DNA of 57,299 nt from Burkholderiales bacterium (GTDB lineage Bacteria > Pseudomonadota > Gammaproteobacteria > Burkholderiales > Burkholderiaceae_C), in contig JAEKKH010000146.1 of the NCBI GenBank assembly GCA_019510465.1, forward strand, positions 1 through 57,299, read 5' to 3'. Position 1 is the stretch's first letter. The number at the start of each line of letters is the position of its first letter. Made by a program: the position numbers and the translations under genes. Below, piece by piece: positions 44,696 to 50,512 of the stretch. The notes beneath the pieces were generated by a model that saw only the letters and a list, made by a program, of their open reading frames with translations, had not been told where the DNA came from and made no database searches.

Positions 44696-47287
<2,592 letters not shown>

Positions 47288-47536
47288 GGCGCGCTCCCTG
47301 GCCCGGCGATCCATGCCGTCGGGCATCTCGCGACAGGATAAGCGCCTGCCCGGCGACGGCCAATCCGCCCCGGAATGCCTGCGAGGGCGGCGCGGGTTCG
47401 CCATCGCCGGCGCCGGCCAGTTGAAGAACCTTTTCGCCGACGGGCGCTGAATTGCCCTTCATTTCCGGCCTTGATCGCCGATTACGCCCGGCGCCGGATC
47501 TCTACGATTCAACCATCCGAATCCAGGGGTCCGCCC
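47288..47536. other. 249-bp divergent intergenic region
   Basis: Promoter region shared by the MASE-type kinase and the LEA-like gene. It includes a relatively AT-rich patch around 47440-47470 and the palindrome-like GCCGGCGCCGGC; no operator is called and no gene is seen. Confidence 0.35.
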
Positions 47537-48274
47537 ATGACGTCCGTCACTTCCTCCACCAGCACGATCAGCTCGCCGTACGCCTCGGTGAAGGAGCAGA
47601 TCCGGCCGGCCCGGTTCGAGTCGTCCGACAGGGCGGACGGCGGCAGCCCGTCCGGCGCCTGGAAGGGCGTCGGCGACGCGATCGCCGAAGGCGGCAGCGC
47701 CACCGTCTCCCTGAGCGAGAAGGCGATGCATGCCGTCGAGGACGGCGCCAGCTACGTCGGCAACGCCGTCGAGACGGGCATCGCCGACGTCGGTGCCGCC
47801 GCGATGGCCGCCTATGCCGCGGTCAGGAACGGCGTCAACGAGACGGTGCACGGGGTCGAGAACGCCGGCGCGGCCGCCTGGAACACGATCAAGGCGGGCG
47901 CCGAGGACGTCGCGGGAATGGCCGGCGACGTGGTGCATGCCGCCGAAGCCGGCGTCGAGGCCGTGGGCGACGTCGCCGTCGACGCCTGGCACGGCGTCGA
48001 GCACCTGGCTTCCGAGGCGCTGCACGGCATCGAGAAGGGCACCGGCGAGCTCGAGCACCTGGGCAGTGACGCCTGGCATGCGGTCGAGAACGGCACGCAC
48101 CGCATGCGCGACTACGCCGGCCAGGCGGGCGACGGCATCAAGACCGCCGCGGGCTACGTCGGCGACGGCATCGGCGACGTCGCCGACGCGGTCGGCAACG
48201 TCGCCGGCCGCATGGCCAGCTATGCCACGGTGGGCGCCGCGGCCGTCGAGCGCGCCTTCACCGCCGTCGCCTGA
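47537..48274 (+). CDS. LEA-like Ala/Gly/Val amphipathic repeat protein
   Basis: 245-residue protein with no Cys, no signal peptide and no membrane segment. After a Ser/Thr-rich start (MTSVTSSTSTISSP) the sequence consists of amphipathic segments rich in Ala, Gly, Val, Asp, Glu and His. It has loosely repeated units of about 11 residues (AWHGVEHLASE, ALHGIEKGTGE; earlier AVEDGASYVGN, AVETGIADVGA). This pattern resembles late-embryogenesis-abundant and other desiccation or membrane-surface proteins rather than an enzyme; the family is not recognised. ATG 47537 is the likely start. It is followed 29 bp later by a lipoprotein gene and then an FlgH homologue on the same strand. Confidence 0.7.
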   Translation: MTSVTSSTSTISSPYASVKEQIRPARFESSDRADGGSPSGAWKGVGDAIAEGGSATVSLSEKAMHAVEDGASYVGNAVETGIADVGAAAMAAYAAVRNGVNETVHGVENAGAAAWNTIKAGAEDVAGMAGDVVHAAEAGVEAVGDVAVDAWHGVEHLASEALHGIEKGTGELEHLGSDAWHAVENGTHRMRDYAGQAGDGIKTAAGYVGDGIGDVADAVGNVAGRMASYATVGAAAVERAFTAVA

Positions 48275-48303
48275 GTCCCGAGACCGAACCCGCCTTGCAT
48301 CCC

Positions 48304-48843
48304 ATGCGCCACTTCCCGCTCTTCGCCCTGGCCGCGGCCGCCCTCGTGCTGCCGGGCTGCTCCGTCATCAGCCCCGCGCCGGTGCTGGAACTGGTCAAGG
48401 CCACCGGCGCCGTCGCCGTCAGCGCCATCTCGCATGGCCCCAGCAGCGCGAAGAACACCGTCTACCACGAGCACAAGGCGCTCGACACCGTCTGCGTCGA
48501 ATACAACCCGCTGACGCCCGATCCCGACATCGCCCCCGCGCTGCAGGCCGAGCTGCGCACGCACGAGATCGACAGCCGCATCTACGAGGAGGGCGGCGCG
48601 CCGGCTTCCTGCAAGTTCCGCGTCACCTACACCGCCGACATCGAGTGGGGCATCCCGCCGTTCGGCAGCGGCTACAAGTCCTACATGCGCGACGCCACGC
48701 TGACGCTGCGCGACGAGAACGGCACGGTGCTCTCCAGCAGCGCCTACGCGTTGGACGGCACCTTCCAGATGGGCAAGTGGTCCACCAGCCGCAGCAAGCT
48801 GGCGCCGGTGGTGACCGCGCTGGTCACCGGCTTCGACCACTGA
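48304..48843 (+). CDS. Hypothetical lipoprotein
   Basis: 179-residue protein with a signal peptide ending in the lipobox LPGC, so it should be lipidated. The mature part is mixed alpha/beta with SAKNTVYHEHKALDTVCVEY, an internal Cys pair (VCVEY; SCKFRV) that could form a disulfide, and aromatic beta-strand-like segments (YTADIEWGIPPFGSGYKSYM). No characterised family is recognised. ATG 48304 is used; the tracked TTG is three codons earlier. It lies between the LEA-like gene and the FlgH homologue, with gaps of 29 and 33 bp, so the three probably form one operon. Confidence 0.75.
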   Translation: MRHFPLFALAAAALVLPGCSVISPAPVLELVKATGAVAVSAISHGPSSAKNTVYHEHKALDTVCVEYNPLTPDPDIAPALQAELRTHEIDSRIYEEGGAPASCKFRVTYTADIEWGIPPFGSGYKSYMRDATLTLRDENGTVLSSSAYALDGTFQMGKWSTSRSKLAPVVTALVTGFDH

Positions 48844-48876
48844 CCGGCCCGCCCGACATCGTTCCAAGGATCTTCC

Positions 48877-49590
48877 GTGACCGCCTCGACCTCCGCCTTC
48901 CGCCGTCTCGTCGCCCCGTCTTTGCTGGCCGTCGCCGGCGCGATGGCGGGCTGCGCCTCCAACACCCCGCTGGTGCAGGGCCCGACGTCCGTGCGCCCGG
49001 TGCCGCCGCCGACCTTCGCCGAGCGCACCGTCACGGGCGGCATCTATCGCGCCAACCTCGGCACCGTGTCGCTGTTCTCCGACCAGCGCAAGCCGCAGGC
49101 CATCGGCGACACGATCAAGATCGACATCTCGGAAAGCCTGGACGCCAGCAGCGTCGTCAACAGCGTGAACAGCCGCGAGAACGCGGTCGCGTCCAAGGGG
49201 CCGGGCATGAACTCCAACAGCCTGGGCTCGCTGCTCAAGGGCCTGGCCAACATGGATGCCACGGCCTCGGGCAGCGACTCGTTCACCGGCAAGGGCAATT
49301 CGCAGAACACCGCGAAGTTCAATGCGCGGCTGTCGGCCTTCGTCATCAACGTGCAGTCCAACGGCAACCTGGTGGTGGCCGGCGAGCGCAGCATGTCGTT
49401 CAACGGCACGCTCAACACGCTGCGCTTCTCGGGCGTGGTCAACCCGCTGGACATCAAGGCCGGGGGCATCGTGGCCTCGGGCGACGTGGCCGACGCGAAG
49501 ACCGAGCTGGTGGGCAGCGGCGGCACCGCCGACACGGCCTCGCGCAGCTGGCTGCAGAAGCTCCTGACGGACGGCCTGTCGGTCTGGTGA
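48877..49590 (+). CDS. FlgH (flagellar L-ring lipoprotein) homologue, isolated
   Basis: 237-residue lipoprotein clearly of the FlgH family. It has a signal peptide ending in AGC, then NTPLVQGPTSVRPVPPPT, SLFSDQRKPQAIGDTIKIDI, SGSDSFTGKGNSQNT, FVINVQSNGNLVVAGERSM, RFSGVVNPLDIKAGGIVASG and VADAKTEL, and the end SWLQKLL. FlgH forms the outer-membrane L-ring around the flagellar rod. No other rod, hook or ring gene (flgA-G, flgI-L) lies in the window, so this copy is outside the usual operon. The start is GTG 48877 behind CCAAGGATC. It is the last gene of the LEA-like/lipoprotein group and is followed by a strong terminator. Confidence 0.88.
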   Translation: MTASTSAFRRLVAPSLLAVAGAMAGCASNTPLVQGPTSVRPVPPPTFAERTVTGGIYRANLGTVSLFSDQRKPQAIGDTIKIDISESLDASSVVNSVNSRENAVASKGPGMNSNSLGSLLKGLANMDATASGSDSFTGKGNSQNTAKFNARLSAFVINVQSNGNLVVAGERSMSFNGTLNTLRFSGVVNPLDIKAGGIVASGDVADAKTELVGSGGTADTASRSWLQKLLTDGLSVW

Positions 49591-49636: not shown

Positions 49637-49664
49637 GCGGCTTCGCCTCGTCGGGCGAAGCCGC
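49637..49664 (+). terminator. Intrinsic terminator after the FlgH homologue
   Basis: GCGGCTTCGCC-TCGTCG-GGCGAAGCCGC forms a perfect 11-bp stem with a six-base loop, followed by TTTCGTTTG. It lies 46 bp after the stop of the FlgH homologue and marks the end of that operon, ahead of the OmpR-type regulator. Confidence 0.85.
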
Positions 49665-49759: not shown

Positions 49760-50512
49760 ATGATCACCTGCCTCATCGTCGATGACGATCCCGCGCTGCG
49801 CGAACTCGTCGGCGACCACCTCACGCGCTACGGCCTGACGGCGCGCCTGGCCGACAGCGCCGCCGCGATGCGCCGCGAACTGGCCCGCGGCGGCATCGAC
49901 ATCGTGCTGCTCGACCTGATGCTGCCCGATGGCGACGGCATCGAGCTGTGCCGCGATCTGCGCATGCATTCGAAGCTGCCCGTGATCATGCTGACCGCCC
50001 AGGGCGACCCGATCAGCCGCGTGCTGGGGCTGGAGATGGGGGCCGACGACTACGTCGCCAAGCCGTTCGAGCCGCGCGAGCTGCTGGCGCGCATCCATGC
50101 GTTGATCCGCCGCAGCTCCGGCACGCTGGCTCCCGGCGTGGGCGAGCCGGCCGGCGAGGCCGGCGCCGCGCCCCGGTTCGCGCCCCCGGGGCTGTCCGCG
50201 CGCGCGGAGTTCGGCGGCTGGCAGATCGACTGGCGCAACCGCATGCTGGTCAGCCCCGAGGGCACGGGGCTGTCGCTGTCCAACGTCGAATACCGGCTGC
50301 TGGCGGCCTTCGCCGAGCATCCGGGCGAGGTGCTCAGCCGCGGCCAGCTCGTCGAGATGACGCGCAGCGCCGCCAGCGAGAACAACGAACGCTCGATCGA
50401 CCTGGCGGTCTCGCGCCTGCGCGCCAAGCTGCGCGAGTCCCTTGAGAATCCGCATTTCATCCGCACCGTGAGAGGGCGCGGCTACCAGTTCACCGCCGAA
50501 CTGGCCCGGTAG
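49760..50512 (+). CDS. OmpR/PhoB-family response regulator
   Basis: 250-residue regulator. The receiver (CLIVDDDPALRELV; phosphoacceptor in LLDLMLPDGDG; AKPFEPREL) is joined by a Gly/Ala/Pro-rich linker to a winged-HTH Trans_reg_C domain (LSNVEYRLLAAFAEHPGEVL, RSIDLAVSRLRAKL, FIRTVRGRGYQF). All phosphorylation residues are in place. ATG 49760 is the internal Met before the receiver; upstream residues in the tracked ORF are not conserved. No histidine kinase gene is adjacent, so its partner is elsewhere. RstA/OmpR-like proteins of this length are closest. Confidence 0.93.
   Translation: MITCLIVDDDPALRELVGDHLTRYGLTARLADSAAAMRRELARGGIDIVLLDLMLPDGDGIELCRDLRMHSKLPVIMLTAQGDPISRVLGLEMGADDYVAKPFEPRELLARIHALIRRSSGTLAPGVGEPAGEAGAAPRFAPPGLSARAEFGGWQIDWRNRMLVSPEGTGLSLSNVEYRLLAAFAEHPGEVLSRGQLVEMTRSAASENNERSIDLAVSRLRAKLRESLENPHFIRTVRGRGYQFTAELAR

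Follow-up and report, generated by a model that had tools for sequence, protein, structure and literature searches.

A three-gene unit in a bacterium of the genus Scleromatobacter appears to encode an alternative flagellar L-ring module that has replaced the normal flgH in this genus, a reading to which we assign a probability of roughly one half (0.52). The L-ring of the flagellum counts as an invariable component of the motor. If this reading is true, the outer-membrane bushing of the flagellum is exchangeable, a second FlgH with its partners and regulators displacing the original, and two protein families without a function gain one; a swappable flagellar ring, hitherto undescribed, may thus exist in the carriers. 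The unit lies in a stretch of 57,299 nucleotides that was analysed as a whole (the window), and Scleromatobacter humisilvae BS-T2-15 provides locus L004 of the comparison. The elements of the unit and its surroundings are as follows.

47449-47484, + strand: conserved block upstream of gene A, GAATTGCCCTTCATTTCCGGCCTTGATCGCCGATTA (from a four-genome upstream alignment)
47537-48274, + strand: gene A, Ala/Gly-rich amphipathic helical protein of 245 aa, signal peptide absent, middle variable
48304-48843, + strand: gene B, outer-membrane-type lipoprotein of 179 aa, distantly related to the Sbal_3080 family
48877-49590, + strand: gene C (FlgH2), 237 aa, GTG start, FlgH paralogue of the L-ring lipoprotein type
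49637-49664, + strand: intrinsic terminator common to A, B and FlgH2
49760-50512, + strand: OmpR/PhoB-type response regulator, same-strand kinase not adjoining

The spacing is 29 bp between A and B and 33 bp between B and FlgH2, and the terminator consists of a 12-pair stem followed by a T-rich tail (fold of -30 kcal/mol, z = -4.2 against shuffles). The earlier note, made from the letters of the window, had placed the three genes at 47537-49590, with these gaps and a shared strong terminator at 49637-49664, and this account is confirmed. Upstream of the unit and divergent from it, a hybrid histidine kinase with a MASE4 sensor and two receiver domains is encoded on the minus strand (44696-47404); G002 and G003 carry a homologue at the equivalent position.

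The unit is present in all four Scleromatobacter genomes. Within the family, 41 of 401 surveyed genomes encode B and 40 encode the FlgH2 type, with B and FlgH2 side by side in every one of these 40 carriers and in two copies in three of them. FlgH2 lies downstream of B on the same strand at 42 of 43 loci (median gap 27.5 bp), the sole exception being G197, where the two genes are convergent. Directly 5' of B, an Ala-rich ORF of 107-245 aa occurs at 43 of 44 loci (median gap 10 bp). By BLAST, these upstream ORFs form one cluster of 26 loci and a second of 5; the remaining ones share the same layout (a Ser/Thr-rich start, an SFSAESL-like motif and a C-terminal AxYxxxG), but since they are divergent, to speak of a single A family is a judgement.

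A profile search with B extended the association to 14 more genomes, spread over five further families of the order, in which FlgH2 lies beside B or about 1 kb from it; in G649 the two genes are separated, by about 1 kb, by a response regulator. The layouts vary: the genes are convergent in families f8 and f28, FlgH2 precedes B in f5, and the order A-B-C recurs in f10, where an A-like gene is found (L260), as is possibly also the case in f28 (L263). The same search yielded a B-like gene without a nearby FlgH2 in five genomes. On Caballeronia megaplasmids, relatives of B and FlgH lie 4-9 kb apart with two-component genes adjoining, and the records annotate them merely as hypothetical proteins and FlgH (L-ring protein). 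On plasmid p1 of C. grimmiae (L280, 6940-9393), copies of flhD and flhC stand immediately 5' of the B homologue, and the FlgH gene follows about 4 kb past it, beside two-component and tyrosine-phosphatase genes, a setting that fits a flagellar role. The arrangement goes beyond chance, since the genes have remained linked in about 20 genera of this family and in other families as well. A coincidence peculiar to the window is ruled out by this conservation, and the case that the earlier note had named as refuting its reading, genes that are neighbours in no other genome, clearly does not apply.

That the third gene encodes an FlgH homologue, as first recognized from the translation, is clear from its match to PF02107 (132 bits, cut-off 27) and from its alignment with Salmonella FlgH over the whole length. 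Against the NCBIfam FlgH equivalog it scores 135.8 bits, under the cut-off of 280, and FlgH2 departs from operon FlgH at many positions that are otherwise conserved, which speaks against the L-ring reading. The lipobox cysteine, Cys26, is invariant in 34 sequences, and the protein carries a KGPG motif at residues 107-110 and a C-terminal WLQ...LSVW. In a tree of 112 proteins (43 FlgH2 and 69 operon-type or secondary FlgH), all 43 FlgH2 proteins fall on one side of a branch with an SH-aLRT value of 97; the inner branching order of this tree is weak and some of its branches are long. Within the family, mean identity is 55% among FlgH2 proteins and 33% between FlgH2 and operon FlgH. Hydrophobic pockets of FlgI receive Ile30-Phe31 and Leu44-Phe45 of FlgH (Yamaguchi et al., PMC8298488). 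The corresponding positions of the FlgH2 in the window are I56, Y57, L66 and F67, and across the 43 FlgH2 proteins the first is I or L and the second aromatic in 100%, while the third is L in 37 (86%) and the fourth F in 40 (93%).

FlgI is encoded in all 54 module genomes (40 of the family and 14 of other families), and also in G314, compared with any FlgH match in 46 of 61 relatives; because the module carriers are related to one another, this co-occurrence is an enrichment and no proof. In each readable family carrier outside Scleromatobacter, the FlgI count equals that of operon-type FlgH, and the operon flgH adjoins flgI in every such carrier checked bar G332, where it lies 7 kb off. No extra FlgI accompanies the module in the family carriers, so that FlgH2, if it docks on a P-ring, must use the flagellar one. 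Most module carriers retain a normal flgH too, and the module is mostly located away from flagellar genes.

In all four Scleromatobacter genomes, flgH is absent beside the main flgI. Their main flg operon runs directly from flgG to flgI, and in G003, with a completeness of 100%, the stop of flgG and the start of flgI overlap as TGATG. With flgH missing from this operon, FlgH2 is left as the sole candidate L-ring gene of the main flagellum, and in G003 and G001 no other FlgH is encoded in the genome. The other two genomes, G000 and G002, carry an additional, divergent FlgH-FlgI pair that belongs to another flagellar set (loci L055 and L056; G000:C7:3068-4716 and G002:C71), which suggests a second flagellar system; the FlgH of this pair has an apparently ordinary signal peptide (AHA-A), a clear lipobox being absent. 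The earlier note had also weighed the case of a sole flagellar flgH transcribed alone. Its first half holds for the main flagellum of Scleromatobacter and its second half does not, as the gene sits in a three-gene unit, and this combination favours a flagellar role over one in stress.

The flgG-flgI junction also lacks flgH in G314, a genome of another genus. There, exactly 5,000 N in a row follow right after B (L185, 7002-12001), where FlgH2 would be expected, and no readable flgH is found anywhere in the genome, the run masking the FlgH2 position; a large fused B protein at this locus was rejected as an artefact of the same run. As G314 stands apart from Scleromatobacter in the B tree, with weak support, two independent losses of flgH are likely on these sequences.

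We infer from this pattern that FlgH2, an old FlgH paralogue, would form an outer-membrane ring upon the ordinary FlgI P-ring, that B may be an outer-membrane lipoprotein dedicated to this ring, as its companion or anchor, and that A could be an amphipathic helical partner, either cytoplasmic or exported. In Scleromatobacter, FlgH2 probably does the job of the flgH lost from the main flg operon. The module would be governed by the OmpR-type response regulator in the window and by a Crp-type regulator in other genera, and with regulators of its own the FlgH2 ring could be produced under particular conditions. Since most carriers retain a normal flgH, it is possible that FlgH2 has another function in those carriers.

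At 22 of 59 loci, spread over five families, an OmpR-type response regulator is found near the module, and the one at 49760-50512 probably regulates it. A Crp-type regulator, named as such from its sequence, lies 3' of the module in 13 genomes. Downstream of FlgH2, six genomes from several genera encode what we take to be a chalcone-isomerase-like small periplasmic protein (L050 and L051 among the loci). The 36-bp block at 47449-47484 is nearly invariant in the four Scleromatobacter genomes with diverged flanks, and may act as a promoter: its 3' end, GCCGATTA (47477-47484), resembles a sigma-28 -10 element with a poor -35, and a -10 of the TAnnAT type (TACGAT) follows at 47503-47508. The sigma-28-like element is confined to Scleromatobacter and is not enriched at module loci of other genera, and a sigma-28 promoter was discarded as a module-wide feature.

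A broader formulation, which we hold tentatively, is that A, B and FlgH2, as an old Burkholderiales module with regulators of its own, make an outer-membrane ring of a second kind, be it a swapped L-ring or a separate ring or pore, and that this ring has entirely replaced the normal L-ring in some lineages. A rival explanation is a non-flagellar outer-membrane ring or pore of A, B and FlgH2, serving secretion, adhesion or envelope repair, with flagellation of the carriers reflecting shared ancestry. We consider such a ring unlikely. It would fit the complete flg operon, flgH included, of most carriers, the usual distance of the module from flagellar genes and its separate regulators, and it draws on a predicted structural likeness of B to PelC. 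As the earlier note had pointed out, B is a disulfide-capable lipoprotein: it has a lipobox cysteine (Cys19), and Cys64 and Cys103 are invariant in 34 homologues and likely form a disulfide. An AlphaFold model built from four sequences predicts a beta-alpha-beta-beta-beta-beta-alpha topology (pLDDT 46, weak), for which Foldseek returned PelC first (4e-5) and then LptE, with TM-scores of 0.3-0.4; PelC is a ring-forming secretion lipoprotein, and this match is distant and of low confidence. No profile match for B was found among PDB sequences. Because the structure predictions are poor (pLDDT 46 for B and 36 for A), these fold matches are a lead only. The non-flagellar ring sits badly with the presence of FlgI in every carrier, with the FlgI-contact residues that FlgH2 retains, and with the presence of the module where the normal flgH is missing, in Scleromatobacter and apparently in G314.

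The B family is itself broader than the module. All 34 B proteins match the NF040519 model of the Sbal_3080 family (best 6.8e-15), the B of the window scoring 49.2 bits, below the cut-off of 80. In genus g53 (loci L237-L239), B-like lipoproteins are encoded in genomes without FlgI, as a tandem pair in G508. In G020 (L047), a single internal TAG interrupts the B frame, through an error of sequencing or through decay of the gene in that genome.

Perhaps the module serves flagella other than as a working L-ring, by sealing or stabilising the outer membrane where motors are old or have been ejected, for instance, or by forming an accessory outer ring. Lipoprotein accessory rings at the outer membrane are known, as in Helicobacter pylori, where FapH forms a lipoprotein ring round the motor that shields the outer membrane during rotation (PMC11756786), and ejected flagella leave relic motor structures behind (PMC6424402). 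Such a role would account for the usual retention of the normal flgH, but it would leave the main flagellum of Scleromatobacter with no L-ring protein at all, and we regard it as rather improbable. That FlgH2 is an ordinary relocated flgH among unrelated neighbours, for which its position as the sole flgH of G001 and G003 could be adduced, was discarded as very improbable, since FlgH2 forms a clade distinct from operon flgH, both coexist in other genera, and B remains adjacent across families even when oppositely oriented.

Gene A had led the earlier note to a desiccation or envelope-stress unit built around an LEA-like protein. The likeness holds in part: the hydropathy periodicity of A has its maximum at 99.5 degrees per residue, far over shuffles and as in an amphipathic helix, and autocorrelation appears at lags 11 and 18 (0.41 at lag 11, against a shuffled standard deviation of 0.08). 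The family assignment does not hold, as no Pfam LEA family matched A, and the top NCBIfam match, to sll1863 stress proteins, is far under the cut-off. The AlphaFold model from four sequences is all helix and weak (pLDDT 36). Conserved features of A are an N-terminal Ser/Thr-rich stretch, a central (V)S(F/L)S-type motif and the C-terminal AxYxxxG region; one might speculate, from its composition, that the Ser/Thr-rich, low-charge N terminus could act as a type III export signal. A desiccation unit, in spite of the helical, amphipathic 11/18-residue pattern and the sub-threshold stress protein match, is scarcely credible, given that A matches no LEA family, that it is less conserved than either of the other two proteins, and that its partners and the phyletic pattern indicate flagellated cells.

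The A-B-FlgH2 module is apparently undescribed. A search of an open-access library returned no account of a second, orphan or paralogous flgH, of Scleromatobacter or of Sbal_3080, which does not prove that none exists elsewhere; together with the adjacency kept across genomes, this upholds the earlier suggestion of an undescribed system, in the form of a conserved unit around an FlgH outside the flagellar operon. Among known systems, the closest is FlgH itself (PF02107; structures 7bgl and 7clr), with which FlgH2 shares the domain, the lipobox cysteine and the FlgI-docking I-Y/F and L-F pairs. It differs from operon FlgH in its KGPG motif, GER in place of GEK, the C-terminal Trp and the fixed neighbour B. 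Compared with the Sbal_3080 family, B goes with FlgH2, while other relatives are found alone, even in genomes without FlgI. With PelC- and LptE-like periplasmic lipoproteins, B shares the topology predicted by its low-confidence model, but the genes that recur next to the module included none of the Pel or Lpt kind. A resembles LEA and other 11-mer amphipathic proteins in being Ala/Gly rich with an amphipathic helix, and differs from them in having no family match and in the conserved motifs peculiar to its N and C termini. Finally, the FapH and FlgP rings of H. pylori also involve a small flagella-linked lipoprotein and an outer-membrane ring, a likeness by analogy alone, and they differ from the module described here, in which the partner is an FlgH paralogue.
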